The notes under the pieces were generated by a model, which made no database searches, was not told where the DNA came from, and saw nothing but the letters and a program-made list of their open reading frames with translations. A DNA stretch of 64,000 nucleotides from positions 1-64,000 of the forward strand of contig JAJYWN010000060.1 of NCBI GenBank assembly GCA_021791495.1, in the 5' to 3' direction. Made by a program: the position numbers and the translations under genes. Position 1 is the first letter of the stretch, and each line of letters opens with the position of its first letter. This document shows, in pieces, positions 8,946-36,030 of the stretch. Origin of the DNA: Bacillota bacterium (GTDB taxonomy: Bacteria > Bacillota > Sulfobacillia > JAJYWN01).

Positions 8946-9148
8946 TTGAAGGGTGCGGCTCCCGACAACCAGCGCATCCTCTAGGAGACCTTCGCCATTG
9001 CGGGTGCCGTGCTGGAAGCCTGCGGCCTGGCCAAGTCAAGCACGGACATCGACTTTCCGGCCGACGCTTCGGAACTGGCCCAGGTCCACAGCTCCTAGCT
9101 CCATGCCTTGATCAAGACCATCGACACGCCCGTCACCGTGGAGGATAC
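8946..9148 (+). pseudogene. Short decayed coding fragment with two in-frame TAG codons
   Basis: A TTG at 8946 follows GAGGTGA by about seven bases and opens a protein-like frame (MKGAAPDNQRIL, stop, ETFAIAGAVLEACGLAKSS..., stop, LHALIKTIDTPVTVEDTS). Both interruptions are TAG. The fragment ends where the converging NERD gene begins. I do not recognise the family. Simple decay is the likely explanation. It is worth noting only because the frame otherwise stays intact. Confidence 0.4.
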
Positions 9149-9149
9149 G

Positions 9150-9944
9150 TCAGGGCCGGCTTGTCGATCCAACTTGGCCGCCCACTACCTTGGCCTTGTT
9201 TTCCCTCATAGACAAAGCCGTCGTGGCAAGAGCGTGCATGGCGGTGGCCAGGTGAGTGACTTTGCCGGAATCCAGCCTGCGGGGAGCGCCCTCGATCCAC
9301 GACGCCAGGTTATCCTGTCGCAAGATGGCGATGTTCCGAACAAGGCTCGGAACGTCGGTCCACGCCAAAGGCACCACGAGCACCCCTTGGACGTAGACGT
9401 CTTCACCGACCAAGGCCATTAGCCGTTCCCGAAGCATCATCGCAGCGCGACGTGTCTTCTGTAACACATCGCCGCCATCAGGAAGCTTGCCGTTGTGGAG
9501 AAGCTTCCCATCTGTGCTCACCGTCAGTAGGCCGCGCCAGTTCTTGGTCGAGAGCAGGAAGATGCCGCCGGGGCCCACCGCGACGTGATCAATGTCGCTG
9601 CCGGCCTCCAGCTGAAGCCCGTGGAATAGATGGTACGAAGCAGGCAAGTCCTCAAGCAGGTAGCCGACCAGATGCTCGCCGTCGGCACCCTTGAGGTAGT
9701 TGCGCCTCTCGTCGGTGGCCTTGGTGGTAACACGGTCCATGAACTTGATAACTCCCCACGATGCAGCCACCCACACGAGAAAGGCAAGCCCTTTTCCCAA
9801 AGGAGGCGCCTTTGCTGCGGAGAGATATCCGAACGCGATGGACATGAGATTCATGGCGCCCAGAGACACCGCGAATGCCGACAAGGTGATCTTCCTGGCC
9901 TTCGTGTCTGGGTACTTCCCGGGTTCTCCAAAGGTCTTGGGCAC
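9150..9944 (-). CDS. NERD-domain membrane protein
   Basis: About 264 residues from GTG at 9944, chosen because GGAGGT lies seven bases upstream; an earlier GTG at 9992 lacks one. Two hydrophobic segments near the N-terminus (SAFAVSLGAMNLMSIAFGYL and GKGLAFLVWVAASWGVIKF) predict a membrane hairpin. A NERD (nuclease-related) domain follows: GADGEHLVGYLLEDL, then SDIDHVAVGPGGIFLLSTKNWRG, with the D-x-D and K residues typical of the fold. NERD proteins are often linked with defence or DNA-processing genes, but a nuclease activity is usually only inferred. It is divergent from the mcrB-like gene. Confidence 0.8.
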   Translation of the reverse strand: MPKTFGEPGKYPDTKARKITLSAFAVSLGAMNLMSIAFGYLSAAKAPPLGKGLAFLVWVAASWGVIKFMDRVTTKATDERRNYLKGADGEHLVGYLLEDLPASYHLFHGLQLEAGSDIDHVAVGPGGIFLLSTKNWRGLLTVSTDGKLLHNGKLPDGGDVLQKTRRAAMMLRERLMALVGEDVYVQGVLVVPLAWTDVPSLVRNIAILRQDNLASWIEGAPRRLDSGKVTHLATAMHALATTALSMRENKAKVVGGQVGSTSRP

Positions 9945-23692: not shown

Positions 23693-23866
23693 TTCCGCCC
23701 GAACCAGTGCAGACCTGTAGACCTCTTCGACTTGGATGATCGAGTCGACCTCTGGAACACGGACGTCCTGCCTGCGCTGGTAGTGAGAGCATGTCGCTAC
23801 GGAGGACGCCTCCCCAAGGGCCTCCCCGACGATATGCGACGGGCCCTCGACCAAGGAGGAAGCTGA
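23693..23866 (+). pseudogene. C-terminal remnant of an unknown gene preceding array copy 1
   Basis: A protein-like frame with no start reads RPVDLFDLDDRVDLWNTDV and then LPKGLPDDMRRALDQGGS before TGA at 23864-23866. A similar ending (GLRDDVRRALNQGGS) occurs just before array copy 2, after a MazF-like fragment. It is probably the 3' end of the gene that once preceded each array unit. The rest of 23,560-23,900 shows no gene. Confidence 0.4.
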
Positions 23867-23914
23867 GGGCTGCAGCAAGAATGGGGCGCTGGCAGTATTC
23901 GGGAGGTGTCAAGA

Positions 23915-24457
23915 TTGGATGACGACGAGTTCCCTCCTGCTTCCCCAGGCCAACTTTGGCAGGCCGCCGATGTCGCGGGCGTCCTATACGTGGCAGATGC
24001 CGTCATCGAAGACCCGATAATCGCGGCGCATCCGGTTTCCCTTGAGATCAGATACCTGTCTGGCGAAGATGTGCGCCTGGAGGCCCACGAGACGCCTCTC
24101 GGCGTGCAAGCGATGATCGAAGCCTGGCACTTCCTTCCCGTTGACCGGGCGGCACTAGGCCGCTTCTTAGGAGAAGTGCCCGAAGAAGTCCTCCGGACGG
24201 TCGCCAGGTTCCGGGCTGGAACCGCCACGCAGGCCGATCGGGACGCCCGCTCGGGGGCGGGGCTGCCGCCCGATCCTGGTCATGTCATCGAGGCTTTCTG
24301 GCACCGAGAAATGGGGTATTGGAAGCCCGCCGGCGCCCGGGCGCTGGCTTTGATGCTGTCGATTGATCCGGGACAGGAAGAGGCGGCGGCGATGGACGCC
24401 CCGCGCGGCTTCGTTGGTCCTGCGGCGGACAACTCGAGGAAGGGATTCACCTCCTAG
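23915..24457 (+). CDS. Array protein copy 1 (unrecognised family, subtype A)
   Basis: 180 residues from TTG at 23915, chosen over GTG 23906 because the latter overlaps the GGGAGGTG ribosome site; paralogues start at the equivalent place. The N-terminal half is the conserved part: PGQLWQAADVAG, EDPIIAAHPVS, GEDVRLEAHETPLG, MIEAWHFLPVDRAALGRFLGEVPEEV. The order G-x-L-W, PVS, PLG, IEAW..PV, LG.LGEV..EV recalls PemK/MazF-fold toxins, but the resemblance is distant and unproven. The C-terminal half has FWHREMGYWKPAGARALALML and varies more among copies. No membrane segment, no metal motif. Function unknown. Confidence 0.72.
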   Translation: MDDDEFPPASPGQLWQAADVAGVLYVADAVIEDPIIAAHPVSLEIRYLSGEDVRLEAHETPLGVQAMIEAWHFLPVDRAALGRFLGEVPEEVLRTVARFRAGTATQADRDARSGAGLPPDPGHVIEAFWHREMGYWKPAGARALALMLSIDPGQEEAAAMDAPRGFVGPAADNSRKGFTS

Positions 24458-24512
24458 CTCAACGAAGCTTCCCTTCTGAGTAGAGGCTCTCGAGGAGGCC
24501 TGCGGCGACATC

Positions 24513-24875
24513 ATGGTGTGGATATCTGATCTTCGGCATTTCCTTGACGAAAACGGAGCGATCCCGGCGGAGATCCCTGGCCCCGCACGGAATGTGGCGC
24601 TATACCTTGGGTCTATCGTCGCCTGGGTCACCGACCATCGGTGCGATGACCCGTATGACGACGATGCTTGGACCAACGTGCCCTGTCGCCCGCGACCCGG
24701 CCGGCGGCGCTGCAACGGTCTGATCTGGGCCTGGCTCGACTCCGATGGCTCGACGATCTGCTGGGAGTGCATGGAGTGCGGGGACAACGGAACCATCGTC
24801 GGATGGGAACGGACGCGGTGGGATCGGCGCCGTGGGTCAGACGGCGAGATCGCTGTGGAGTCCAGGGAGGACTGA
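24513..24875 (+). CDS. Small zinc-ribbon-like hypothetical protein
   Basis: 120 residues. The C-terminal half carries ICWECMECGDNGTIVGWERT (two C-x2-C-like pairs compressed into C-x2-C-x2-C with a preceding C), suggesting a small metal site or a degenerate zinc ribbon, followed by RWDRRRGSDGE. The N-terminal half is acidic (HRCDDPYDDDAW). The last 45 codons recur almost identically at 32,624-32,760 and, more diverged, at 35,922-36,030. The family is not recognised. It interrupts the tandem array between copies 1 and 2. The start ATG lacks a strong ribosome site, so the beginning is uncertain. Confidence 0.5.
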   Translation: MVWISDLRHFLDENGAIPAEIPGPARNVALYLGSIVAWVTDHRCDDPYDDDAWTNVPCRPRPGRRRCNGLIWAWLDSDGSTICWECMECGDNGTIVGWERTRWDRRRGSDGEIAVESRED

Positions 24876-24899
24876 CCGCCATCGGCGAGCTCCTGGGTG

Positions 24900-25196
24900 G
24901 TAAGAGGCCGCAACGGTGGAGACCCCGCCGAGCTGGGCTCGTTCCTGGTGGTAGGGCTGGCCAGCACAAAGGAATCGCATTCGGTCTCACCGTGGCATAT
25001 CTTCGCTCGGATGTTGGTCTTGTGCCCGTTGATGTACGAAGTCCAGTAGTTGTGGCGTCCTCCCATAGCGACTCAGGCGCCTGGCGGCCAGTGAATGGCA
25101 CGTCGTGATCGCCGGGTAATGGCAACAGCAATCGCCATCGGTCGGAGAGGCGTACGCCTCTAGGGTGTCGCGCAAGTGATCTTTCTGGTCTCTCAT
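24900..25196 (-). pseudogene. Possible decayed small gene
   Basis: Two adjoining minus-strand frames look weakly protein-like: MRDQKDHLRDTLEAYASPTD from 25196, then, one frame over, GRHNYWTSYINGHKTNIRAK onward to about 24900. Joining them needs one frameshift near 25070. No family is recognised and this may be chance. The rest of 24,876-25,367 contains only a short plus-strand scrap (QKRFQWEYRGFASPLSGFRC, stop near 25349) and no intact gene. Confidence 0.25.
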
Positions 25197-25367
25197 ACCG
25201 GTACCGCCTTTCGCAGCACCCGTTCACGAATCCGTGGCTTCAGGCTGCATTCTGCAACGACGCCGACACAGCACTGCAGAAGCGATTCCAGTGGGAGTAC
25301 CGGGGTTTCGCCAGCCCGCTTTCCGGATTCCGCTGTAGTACCGCTTGAGCTTTAGGGAGAGACCATC

Positions 25368-25557
25368 GTGGCCAACGTCGACGGACTCCAATTCGGGGAC
25401 ATGTTCTGGATTCAGGATCGGATGACCGGCCCTGGGACCCGCATCCATCCGTGGGTCGTCATCAGGGTATTTGGCCCGGACATTGTGGAACTGTACTTGC
25501 GCACGACCTCGTGGCCTCCGCGACGATGTCCGACGGGCCCTGAACCAAGGAGGAAGT
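25368..25557 (+). pseudogene. MazF-like gene remnant before array copy 2
   Basis: GTG at 25368 opens VANVDGLQFGDMFWIQDRM, then HPWVVIRVFGPDIVELYLRTTS. This G-D-x-F-W ... HPWVVI ... RTTS order is reminiscent of PemK/MazF toxins. After RTTSW the frame shifts, and the continuation in the next frame ends GLRDDVRRALNQGGS, matching the remnant before copy 1, here without a stop. The gene is broken. It suggests that a toxin-like gene was part of the original repeated unit. Confidence 0.4.
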
Positions 25558-25608
25558 CGGGGAGCACGCCGAGAATGGGGCGCTGGCAGTATTCGGGAGG
25601 TGTCAAGC

Positions 25609-26151
25609 ATGGAATGCGACGAGCCCCCTCCTGTCGCCGCGGGTCAATTGTGGCAGGCCTCTGACGTCGCCGGGGTCCTCTTGGTGGTTCACGCCATTGC
25701 CGAAGACCCAATCATCGCCACACATCCGGTTTCCTTTGAGACCAAGTACTTGTCCGCTGAGGATGTGCGCATCGAGGCACACGAGACGCCCCTGGCCGCG
25801 CCGGCGATGGTCGAAGCCTGGCACCCCCTACCCGTTGACCGGGCGGCCCTTGGCCATTTCCTGGGTGAAGTACCCGAAGAGGTCCTTGGGCTGGTCTTAG
25901 GGCTCCGTTTTGGAGTCGCCACTCAGGCCGATCGGGCCGCGCGCTCGGGGACGAAGCTGCCATCTGATCCTCGCGATCCCATCGTGGCTTTCTGGCGCCG
26001 GGAGTTGGAATACTGGAAGCCCGCCGGCGCTCGAGCGCTCGCTTGGATGCTGTCGCTTGATCCGGGAGAGGAGGAGGCGGCGACGGTGGAGGCCCCACGA
26101 GGCTTCGCTGACCTTGCGGCGGGTGACCCGAGGAAAGGATCCGCCTCCTGA
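25609..26151 (+). CDS. Array protein copy 2 (subtype B)
   Basis: 180 residues from ATG at 25609 behind GGGAGGTG. It keeps all conserved blocks of the array family: AAGQLWQASDVAGVLLVVH, EDPIIATHPVSFE, AEDVRIEAHETPLA, AWHPLPVDRAALGHFLGEVPEEV, and FWRRELEYWKPAGARALAWML. Function unknown. It is one of four apparently intact copies. Conservation of the reading frame across several copies argues that the proteins are under selection. Confidence 0.74.
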   Translation: MECDEPPPVAAGQLWQASDVAGVLLVVHAIAEDPIIATHPVSFETKYLSAEDVRIEAHETPLAAPAMVEAWHPLPVDRAALGHFLGEVPEEVLGLVLGLRFGVATQADRAARSGTKLPSDPRDPIVAFWRRELEYWKPAGARALAWMLSLDPGEEEAATVEAPRGFADLAAGDPRKGSAS

Positions 26152-26203
26152 CTTCGAGACTTCCCGATAATGAGCCGCTGGCAATATTCAGGAGGTGTCA
26201 ATC

Positions 26204-26713
26204 ATGGAACGCGATGAGCCCTCTCCTATCGCCGCCGGCCAGCTGTGGCAGGCCGCTGATGTCGCCGGCGTCCTCTTGGTAGTCCACTCCCTTACCGAAG
26301 ACCCGATCATCGCGACGCATCCGGTTTCCTTTGACACCAAGTACTTGTCCTACAAAGATGTGCGGATTGAGGCCCACGAGACACCCCTGGCCACGCCGGC
26401 GATGGTGGAGGCGTGGCACCCACTTCCCGTCGACCGGGCGGCGCTGGGCCGCCTCCTGGGTAAGGTACCCGAAGAGGTTCTCGGGCTGGTCTTGAGGATT
26501 CGGGTCGGAGTGGCTACCCAGGCCGATCTGGCCGCTCGCTCTGGGCCGAAGCCGTCATCCGATCCCGGTGACCCGATCGCTGCTTTCTGGTACCGGGAGT
26601 GGGAGCGCTGGAGGCCCGCCAGCATTCGGGCGATCACTCTGATGCTGTCCGGGGATTCAGGACGGGAAGAGGCGGCTACGGCTGAGGTTTCCATAGGAGT
26701 GCCGCGACCGTAA
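26204..26713 (+). CDS. Array protein copy 3 (subtype B)
   Basis: 169 residues from ATG at 26204 behind GGAGGTG. It is very close to copy 2 through the first 120 residues. The C-terminus is shorter and different after WRPASIRAITLMLSGDSGREE (ending SIGVPRP), because the copy lacks the usual PRGFADLAAGDPRKGSAS tail. The tail appears dispensable or recombined. Confidence 0.72.
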   Translation: MERDEPSPIAAGQLWQAADVAGVLLVVHSLTEDPIIATHPVSFDTKYLSYKDVRIEAHETPLATPAMVEAWHPLPVDRAALGRLLGKVPEEVLGLVLRIRVGVATQADLAARSGPKPSSDPGDPIAAFWYREWERWRPASIRAITLMLSGDSGREEAATAEVSIGVPRP

Positions 26714-26741
26714 CGGCGGCAGTATTCGGGAGGTGTCAAGA

Positions 26742-27287
26742 TTGGATCACGACGAGATCCCTCCTGTTTCCCCAGGCCAGCTTTGGCAAGCCACCGATGT
26801 CGCGGGCATCCTGTACGTGGCCGACACCGTCATCGAAGGCCCGATAATCGCGGCGCATCCGGTTTCCATTGAGATCGAGTACTTGTCCGGTGAGGATTTG
26901 CGCTTGGAGGCCTACGAGACGCCTATTGGTCTGCCGGTAATGATCGAGGCCTGGCACAGCCTCCCCGTCGACCGGGCGGCGCTGGGCCGTTGCCTCGGGC
27001 AGGTGTCCGATGAGGTCTTCATGGTGATCCAGCGGTTCCGGGCCGAGGTCGCCATCAGAGCCGCCGATCGGGCAGCCAGCTCGGGGATGGATCTCCCGTC
27101 CGAGCCTGGTCGTCCCATCGTAGCTTTCTGGCGCCGCGAAATAGAGTACTGGAAACCCGCCGGCGCTCGGGCGCTCGCTCTGATGCTGTCGGAGGACGCC
27201 GGAGAGGAACAGGCGGCGGCGGTGGACGCCCCACGCGGCTTCGCTGACCTTACGGCGGGTGACCCGAGGAAAGGATCCGCCTCCTAA
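26742..27287 (+). CDS. Array protein copy 4 (subtype A)
   Basis: 181 residues from TTG at 26742, the same start type as copy 1. It is closest to copy 1 in the N-terminal half (VSPGQLWQATDVAGILYVAD) but shares the GFADLTAGDPRKGSAS tail with copy 2. Copy 4 thus looks like a recombinant of subtypes A and B. Function unknown. Confidence 0.72.
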   Translation: MDHDEIPPVSPGQLWQATDVAGILYVADTVIEGPIIAAHPVSIEIEYLSGEDLRLEAYETPIGLPVMIEAWHSLPVDRAALGRCLGQVSDEVFMVIQRFRAEVAIRAADRAASSGMDLPSEPGRPIVAFWRREIEYWKPAGARALALMLSEDAGEEQAAAVDAPRGFADLTAGDPRKGSAS

Positions 27288-27340
27288 CTTCCGGGACTTC
27301 CCGATCATGAGCCGCTGGCAGTATCCGGGAGGTGTCAAGA

Positions 27341-27762
27341 GTGGAACGCGATGAGCCCCCCGTGTCGCCGCCGGCCAATTGTGGCAGGCCGCTGACGTCG
27401 CCGGTGTCCTCTTAGTAGTCCACTCCCTTACCGAAGACCCAATCATCGCCACGCATCCGGTTTCCTTTCAGACCAAGTACTTGTCCAGTGAGGATGTGCG
27501 CATCGAGGCGCACGAGACGCCCCTGGCCGCGCCGGCAATGGTCGAAGCCTGGCACCCGCTACCCGTCGACCGGGCGGCGCTGGGCCATCTCCTGGGTGAG
27601 GTGCCCGAAGAGGTTCTCGGGCTGGTCTTAAGGATTCGGGCCAGAATTGACAGCCGGGCCGATAGGGCCGCTCGTTCTGGACCGAAGCCGTCATCTGATC
27701 CCAGTAACCCGATCGCTGCTTTCTGGTATAGGCACCAGCTCTTACTGCTTCCTCCCACCTAG
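27341..27762 (+). pseudogene. Array copy 5, frameshifted and truncated
   Basis: GTG at 27341 follows GGGAGGTG, but within ten codons (GAGCCCCCC region, about 27353-27365) one base is missing compared with copy 2, and the frame changes. The remainder from 27379 continues QLWQ-type subtype B sequence to FWYR and then ends in unrelated residues at 27762. This is the decaying edge of the array. Confidence 0.7.
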
Positions 27763-27766
27763 CGTG

Positions 27767-28206
27767 ATGAAGGAGGCGTTTCGGACGGCGAGAGGAGTGG
27801 ACCCTGTCCTTAGCCTTTCCCTGGCTGTAGGGCTGCTGGTGTTCTGCTGGTTCCGCGAGGGCAAGTCCCGCTGTTCTTCATTGTGATGGCCATAGGAGTA
27901 GTATTCTGCGGGCACACCCTGGTCTCGTTGGACCTGTCCGGCGTCGGAGCCACCTTGGCTGCTCTGATGTTGGTTTCCGCAATCCACGGTCTGGCGTTTC
28001 TCGCTTCCGGCAGAGGATACCCGCTGGGAAGCTATTACCTTGGTGGCGCCTTTCGGGATACGACCTTAAGCTTGGTCGTCGAATGGGTCTTGGCGGTTCA
28101 GGTAGGGATTAGAACAAGAAGCATGAAGAGCCTGCCCAGGTGGGTAGCCTGGGGGGCTCTTGTTCTGGTAGTTGGTGCTTCGATTCTTGGACCCGTCCTA
28201 GCCTAG
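27767..28206 (+). pseudogene. Small membrane protein with a frameshift
   Basis: ATG at 27767 opens MKEAFRTARGVDP and a hydrophobic helix LSLSLAVGLLVFCWF, then hits a stop in the first frame. One frame over, FFIVMAIGVVFCGHTLVSLD leads into further hydrophobic stretches (TLAALMLVSAIHGLAFLA and WVAWGALVLVVGASILGPVLA). A single-base loss near 27871 would explain both. If rejoined it is a roughly 146-residue protein with four membrane helices of no recognised family. The alternative is a separate 106-residue protein from GTG 27883/ATG 27886. Confidence 0.5.
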
Positions 28207-32527: not shown

Positions 32528-32623
32528 CCTCGAAAGGAGGAGCGGCGCGACCTCCTTGGAAAGAGATCCTCCATGTGGGACGATATTCCATAGCGGCGCA
32601 TTGTGTCAAGTTACGGAAAGCGA

Positions 32624-32763
32624 TTCCGATGGTTCGACGATCTGCTGGGAGTGCATGGAGTGCGGGGACAACGGAACCATCATCGGATGGGAACGAACGC
32701 GGTGGGATCGGCGCCGTGGGTCAGACGGCGAGATCACTGTGGAGTCCAGGGAGGACTGACCGC
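32624..32763 (+). repeat. Second, partial copy of the zinc-ribbon gene end
   Basis: This stretch is nearly identical (a handful of differences in about 140 bases) to 24,747-24,878, encoding DSDGSTICWECMECGDNGTI and the RWDRRRGSDGE tail with the same stop. No matching upstream half is present. It lies right before a fragment of the MqsA-like gene, so duplicated pieces of the 24-29 kb zone were pasted here. No intact gene lies in 32,528-32,990. Confidence 0.8.
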
Positions 32764-35921: not shown

Positions 35922-36030
35922 ATCCGACGGGTATCCGCTGGGAGTGCACCGAATGCGGAAACAACGGGACTGTCGTCGGCTGGGAGGGCACGCAGTGGGA
36001 CCGGCGCCGTCGGCCAGATAGCGAAGCCAT
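35922..36030 (+). repeat. Third, diverged copy of the zinc-ribbon gene end
   Basis: The sequence encodes RWECTECGNNGTVVGWEGTQ and WDRRRRPDSE in a frame without a start, the same motif as the protein at 24,513. A small deletion precedes TGG at 35,939. The rest of 35,532-36,186 contains no other gene I can support. Confidence 0.6.

Follow-up and report, generated by a model that had tools for sequence, protein, structure and literature searches.

The window, by which we mean the whole 64,000-nucleotide stretch analysed here, contains a tandem run of related genes whose products have no significant match in Pfam, NCBIfam or PADLOC, and a profile built from the five copies likewise finds no significant match in the PDB. 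What do these genes encode, and why have several of them stayed intact? MazF is an RNA-cutting toxin, and our reading, to which we give a probability of roughly 0.5, is that the array consists of stand-alone, divergent copies of a MazF-fold protein that have lost the RNase mechanism and probably bind a protein partner as regulators.

Five head-to-tail repeats, all in direct orientation, occupy positions 23915-27762, and a protein search of the same genome matches these five sites exactly and no others. The first-pass annotation had described a tandem array of four intact copies and one broken copy behind a strict common leader with a ribosome site, and this is the arrangement we find. The array and its immediate surroundings are composed of the following features:

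23819-23874, + strand: end of a degenerate gene lying upstream of copy 1 (..LPDDMRRALDQGG-stop, from the translation); the ungapped match between copies 1 and 2 begins here, pairing it with its homologue at 25513-25568
23880-23914, + strand: leader and ribosome site of copy 1, common to all copies
23915-24457, + strand: copy 1, subtype A, 180 aa, TTG start
24513-24875, + strand: unrelated ORF between copies 1 and 2, of a widespread hypothetical family (tblastn to 10 plasmid records, 32-38% identity)
25368-25511, + strand: frameshifted remains of a partner-like upstream gene ('FGDMFWIQDRMTG..HPWVV'), matching gene L030:6456-6887 at 39% over 31 aa
25609-26151, + strand: copy 2, a chimera with the N part of subtype B and the C part of subtype A, 180 aa, ATG start
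26204-26713, + strand: copy 3, subtype B, 169 aa, ATG start
26742-27287, + strand: copy 4, subtype A, 181 aa, TTG start
27341-27762, + strand: copy 5, subtype B, GTG start, a pseudogene with an early frameshift and no C-terminus

Each of the five copies follows the same 26-nt leader with its ribosome site, GCNGGCARTATYCRGGAGGTGTCAA, in which GGAGG lies 8-9 nt ahead of the start codon in every case. Copies 1-4 are open throughout, with a C-terminus in copy 3 that differs from those of the other copies. Copy 5 loses its frame at a C run through a 1-nt frameshift and meets a stop after 24 codons (27413-27415); the remaining frame, at 27379-27762, is truncated. Protein identity among the copies is 61-76% (61-69% to copy 1 and up to 76% to copy 2), and we rejected an assembly artefact as the source of the array because the copies differ at 24-39% of residues.

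Relatives of these proteins are rare. A pattern scan of the genome contigs with the five-copy alignment returned no relative, and scans of viral contigs and phage searches returned none either; the family was instead assembled by chaining through the few relatives available, reaching 11 members. Copy 1 matches G001, a protein of 380 aa from the same order that carries a zf-HC2 finger at its N-terminus, in blastp at E 6e-8. A tblastn chain from G001 led to a Mycobacterium intracellulare plasmid protein (P0006) and on to Nocardioides pocheonensis (L046), G1100, G964 and a Euzebya plasmid. In blastp, G001 matches the other members at E 4e-11 to 2e-5, except G964 at 0.003, and the window copies are tied to the rest of the family mainly through this one protein. 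Judged by sequence comparison, the array proteins belong to a small, dispersed family. The 395 genomes sampled from the class of G442 contained one genome with a member, and the 324 from the order of G442 contained three, always as a single copy; among the family members found, multiple copies occur only in the window array. Weak class-level matches in G002, G036 and G125 were read as chance, those in G002 and G036 falling in unrelated genes, and we also rejected a phage hit to P0006, which had E 0.4 and ran antisense to the annotated gene.

The first-pass annotation had offered a weak hint of MazF likeness and had proposed structure prediction with a fold search; run on L046, these revealed a MazF fold. 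AlphaFold was run on L046 residues 1-147 with an alignment of nine family members, the five window copies among them, and produced a model with a pLDDT of 90.1 and a pTM of 0.86 (of five models, two were confident and three scored 53-58). Searching the PDB with this model in Foldseek returned MazF-family chains in 50 of the 50 matches listed, with E values from 2.5e-6 to 1e-4 and TM scores (target) of 0.61-0.80; the named viral entries among the top matches are PemK-like proteins or endoribonucleases. L046 is only 21-24% identical to the window copies, and AlphaFold on window copy 2 with six sequences gave a pLDDT of 37. Profile A6 against the PDB placed M. tuberculosis MazF chains at the top in the same register (E 0.055-0.16), and hhalign against six MazF/PemK proteins gave E 2.7e-4 with a score of 29.4, above every one of 300 column shuffles (highest 20.0). 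Across 398 genomes of the phylum, the genes that profile A6 retrieves after the array itself carry PF02452 PemK/MazF matches, with E values down to 7.7e-35. With the fold carried over by homology from the model of L046, and with the sequence profiles in agreement, the window copies very probably have the MazF fold. Foldseek, the A6 profile, hhalign and the 398-genome search agree, and so the early hint was right at the level of the fold.

According to PMC11394972 and PMC8634880, MazF catalysis uses Arg25 as general acid/base, with Thr48/49 stabilising the transition state. From the β1 glycine to β2, the window copies span 13 residues, compared with 23 in MazF, and no K, R or H lies between these strands, so that the catalytic Arg (Arg25 of B. 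subtilis MazF) is missing. The catalytic-Thr position is Ser in all window copies and Ser or Thr in 11/11 family members. With PemK/MazF type II toxins (PF02452), the copies share a Ser/Thr at this position, the fold, the strand order and the C-terminal 'LG.V..EVL' helix region, but they differ in the lost Arg, in a β1-β2 segment shorter by 10 residues, in their acidity (pI 4.5-5.2 for copies 1-4), in a C-terminal extension of ~70 residues and in their tandem arrangement. No copy scores above the cut-off of the curated PF02452 profile, and one of the 11 family members reaches E 0.06. Nor does an antitoxin gene lie next to any copy: the gaps of 52, 28 and 54 nt between copies leave no room for one, and the ORF that separates copies 1 and 2 is a member of a different family. 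We looked for a PF02452 match, for the catalytic Arg and for an antitoxin partner and found none of them, and for this reason we do not file the array proteins as MazF toxins. From the active-site residues we infer that the window copies do not cleave RNA; some residual activity may persist, since every copy retains a Ser where MazF has its catalytic Thr. The supposition that the amplified unit was the antitoxin or immunity part of a toxin-antitoxin pair is not supported: the copies show no antitoxin or immunity fold, and we rejected antitoxin amplification because the amplified gene itself carries the toxin fold, with no antitoxin gene beside the copies.

Remnants with MazF-like features had also been reported before copies 1 and 2. 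The remnants themselves are real, because the homology between the two copies extends 56 nt upstream past the leader, from 23819 and 25513. Their likeness to MazF, in contrast, found no backing: the remnant at 25368-25511 has no Pfam match and resembles only a gene that lies ahead of the family member in G001, and neither it nor the small upstream genes of the relatives could be supported as MazF homologues. Part of the widespread, ~120-aa hypothetical gene between copies 1 and 2 occurs in three partial copies, at 24737-24879 (within the complete ORF), 32621-32763 and 35933-36024, the latter two having 96.5% and 79% identity to the first.

Gene context in the relatives bears on the role of the fold. 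The gene for the MazF-fold domain overlaps a preceding sigma-like gene by 4 nt in L046, L058 and L059, and starts 12 nt after one at the G001 locus (L030); the sigma-like gene is itself preceded by a small gene bearing the motif 'RPVIV' or 'HPWVV'. Of this gene set the window retains only the broken remnant at 25368-25511, whose 31-residue match is to the small gene of L030. Two of the sigma-like genes have sub-threshold sigma70-ECF matches (E 1.5e-4 and 9.7e-4), and the top PDB match of their profile is SigF (E 0.002). Neighbouring genes encode E2/E1 and JAB at L030, the same set plus a DUF3696-type ATPase at L058, and a DUF3696-type ATPase with HsdM at L046 and L059, and these operons are probably of an anti-virus or defence type. 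The pairing resembles ECF sigma/zf-HC2 anti-sigma pairs in that the domain gene of four relatives is coupled to, or lies close after, a sigma-like gene and one relative (G001) carries the N-terminal zf-HC2 finger (E 2.4e-4; 21.6 bits, with the cut-off at 22.2). It differs in that the sigma-like proteins match only below family cut-offs, zf-HC2 is matched in only one of the four coupled relatives, and the window copies have neither a Pfam match to zf-HC2 nor a sigma-like neighbour. Bacterial ubiquitin-like conjugation operons share ThiF-type E1, E2-like and Prok-JAB genes with the L030 and L058 loci but not with the 237-kb window contig (C50), on which no sigma-like, E1/E2 or JAB homologue was found; the regulatory role in relatives may therefore not carry over to the array. 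The E2/E1/JAB operons with sigma-like and MazF-fold genes, at L058:399-7299 and L030:3172-9546, have no NCBIfam match above cut-off, the E1-E2 fusion being nearest to cap2_3 of '6A-MBL'. A literature search of open-licence papers gave no description of the sigma-like/MazF-fold gene pair, and no Pfam or NCBIfam model searched names it. The array, the loop loss and the sigma-like linkage of the relatives are what set this MazF-fold relative apart.

The arrangement of the copies points to how the array arose. Blocks 2+3 and 4+5 are 81% identical over 1,013 nt, so a pair of copies was probably duplicated. The first-pass annotation had seen two alternating subtypes and had regarded copy 4 as a mixture of both. 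The subtypes stand, and the series that fits better is A, B/A chimera, B, A, B. It is copy 2 that is clearly mosaic, with a 5' part like copies 3/5 and a 3' part like copies 1/4 and a breakpoint at alignment nt 291-404 depending on the comparison (max-chi2 permutation, p = 0.0005, three comparisons). Copy 4 shows no significant break against copies 1 and 3 (maximum chi-square, p 0.28), and its break in the comparison with copy 2 arises because copy 2 is itself chimeric. Pairwise dN/dS, another check that had been proposed, is 0.21-0.44 for the intact copies, far from 1, and synonymous changes are in excess (Fisher p 9e-5 to 3e-13); constraint is strongest in the first ~100 residues when copies 2, 3 and 5 are compared (0.13-0.16). 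These substitution patterns support purifying selection on the intact copies. Of the earlier proposal that frames were kept by selection for diversity or dosage, frame preservation thus holds under purifying selection, but dN/dS gives no sign of diversifying selection, all values being below 1.

Taken with the context of the relatives, a regulator or binder is a likelier role for the array protein than a toxin, because the RNA-cutting residue is seemingly lost and the relatives pair with transcription-factor-like genes. The MazF dimer or groove would have been kept as a protein-binding surface, and in the relatives the domain most likely holds or tunes the transcription regulator of a defence-type operon, being translated directly after a sigma-like gene and once fused to an anti-sigma-type zf-HC2 finger. 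By this analogy we hold a regulatory role for the MazF-fold domain with moderate confidence. In the window lineage, the domain gene would have been duplicated as a pair and then partly homogenised by recombination, and the copies retained as a set of slightly different binding proteins. A more specific version can be put forward only tentatively: the dead MazF-fold protein may be an anti-sigma-like partner of a sigma-like controller of defence operons (ubiquitin-like conjugation, or ATPase + HsdM), and in this genome the dead-MazF part would have escaped and been amplified into differing decoys.

Other explanations draw on the same evidence. The dead copies might instead act as pseudo-toxin decoys, binding MazE-like antitoxins or forming mixed dimers with the genome's own MazF and so tuning chromosomal toxin-antitoxin modules. 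Four genuine PF02452 loci in the genome and a MazF core preserved through the C-terminal helix region would suit such a role, but at about 15% sequence identity to true MazF mixed dimers are improbable, and the relatives adjoin sigma-like genes rather than recognised MazE genes; we regard these decoys as unlikely. Equally doubtful is a decaying duplication remnant without current function, driven by repeat recombination in a genomic island. It would account for the breakage of copy 5 and of the upstream gene, the deviant C-terminus of copy 3 and the other gene fragments in the region, and the constraint could in part predate the last duplications, but copies 1-4 remain open with intact ribosome sites and dN/dS values well short of neutrality.

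Less probable still, and in our view quite improbable, are active divergent ribonuclease toxins with a rebuilt active site, held in check by an unlinked antitoxin. The MazF fold and the Ser or Thr present across the family speak for them, but no window copy has a basic residue in the catalytic-Arg region, the loop is deleted, and the protein is acidic and stands without an adjacent antitoxin. If the regulatory reading of the array is true, a toxin fold has been reused as a regulatory binding module, its chemistry dropped, and amplified in tandem in one lineage, and the sigma-like/MazF-fold pairing offers a starting point for learning how E1/E2/JAB operons, and others like them, may be turned on.

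Positions 1-61000 of the window resemble a defence island, with DUF499, REase-ARP, PDC-S11-like, NYN, SNF2/DUF3670 with SWIM, and Mrr genes, and with AddA/AddB-like, McrB-like and methylase-like ORFs recognised by eye. Downstream of the array, near a short membrane-protein-like ORF, the stretch 27991-28197 is 86% identical to positions 9041-9247 of another contig of the same genome (C27:9041-9247). Between 28434 and 30997 lies a toxin-antitoxin pair resembling MqsR/MqsA (MqsA_antitoxin E 2.7e-7; the upstream ORF was likened to MqsR only by eye). The next gene, which overlaps the pair by 4 nt, encodes a Lon C-terminal protease domain, and the pair and the Lon-type gene possibly form a toxin-antitoxin module with its own protease.
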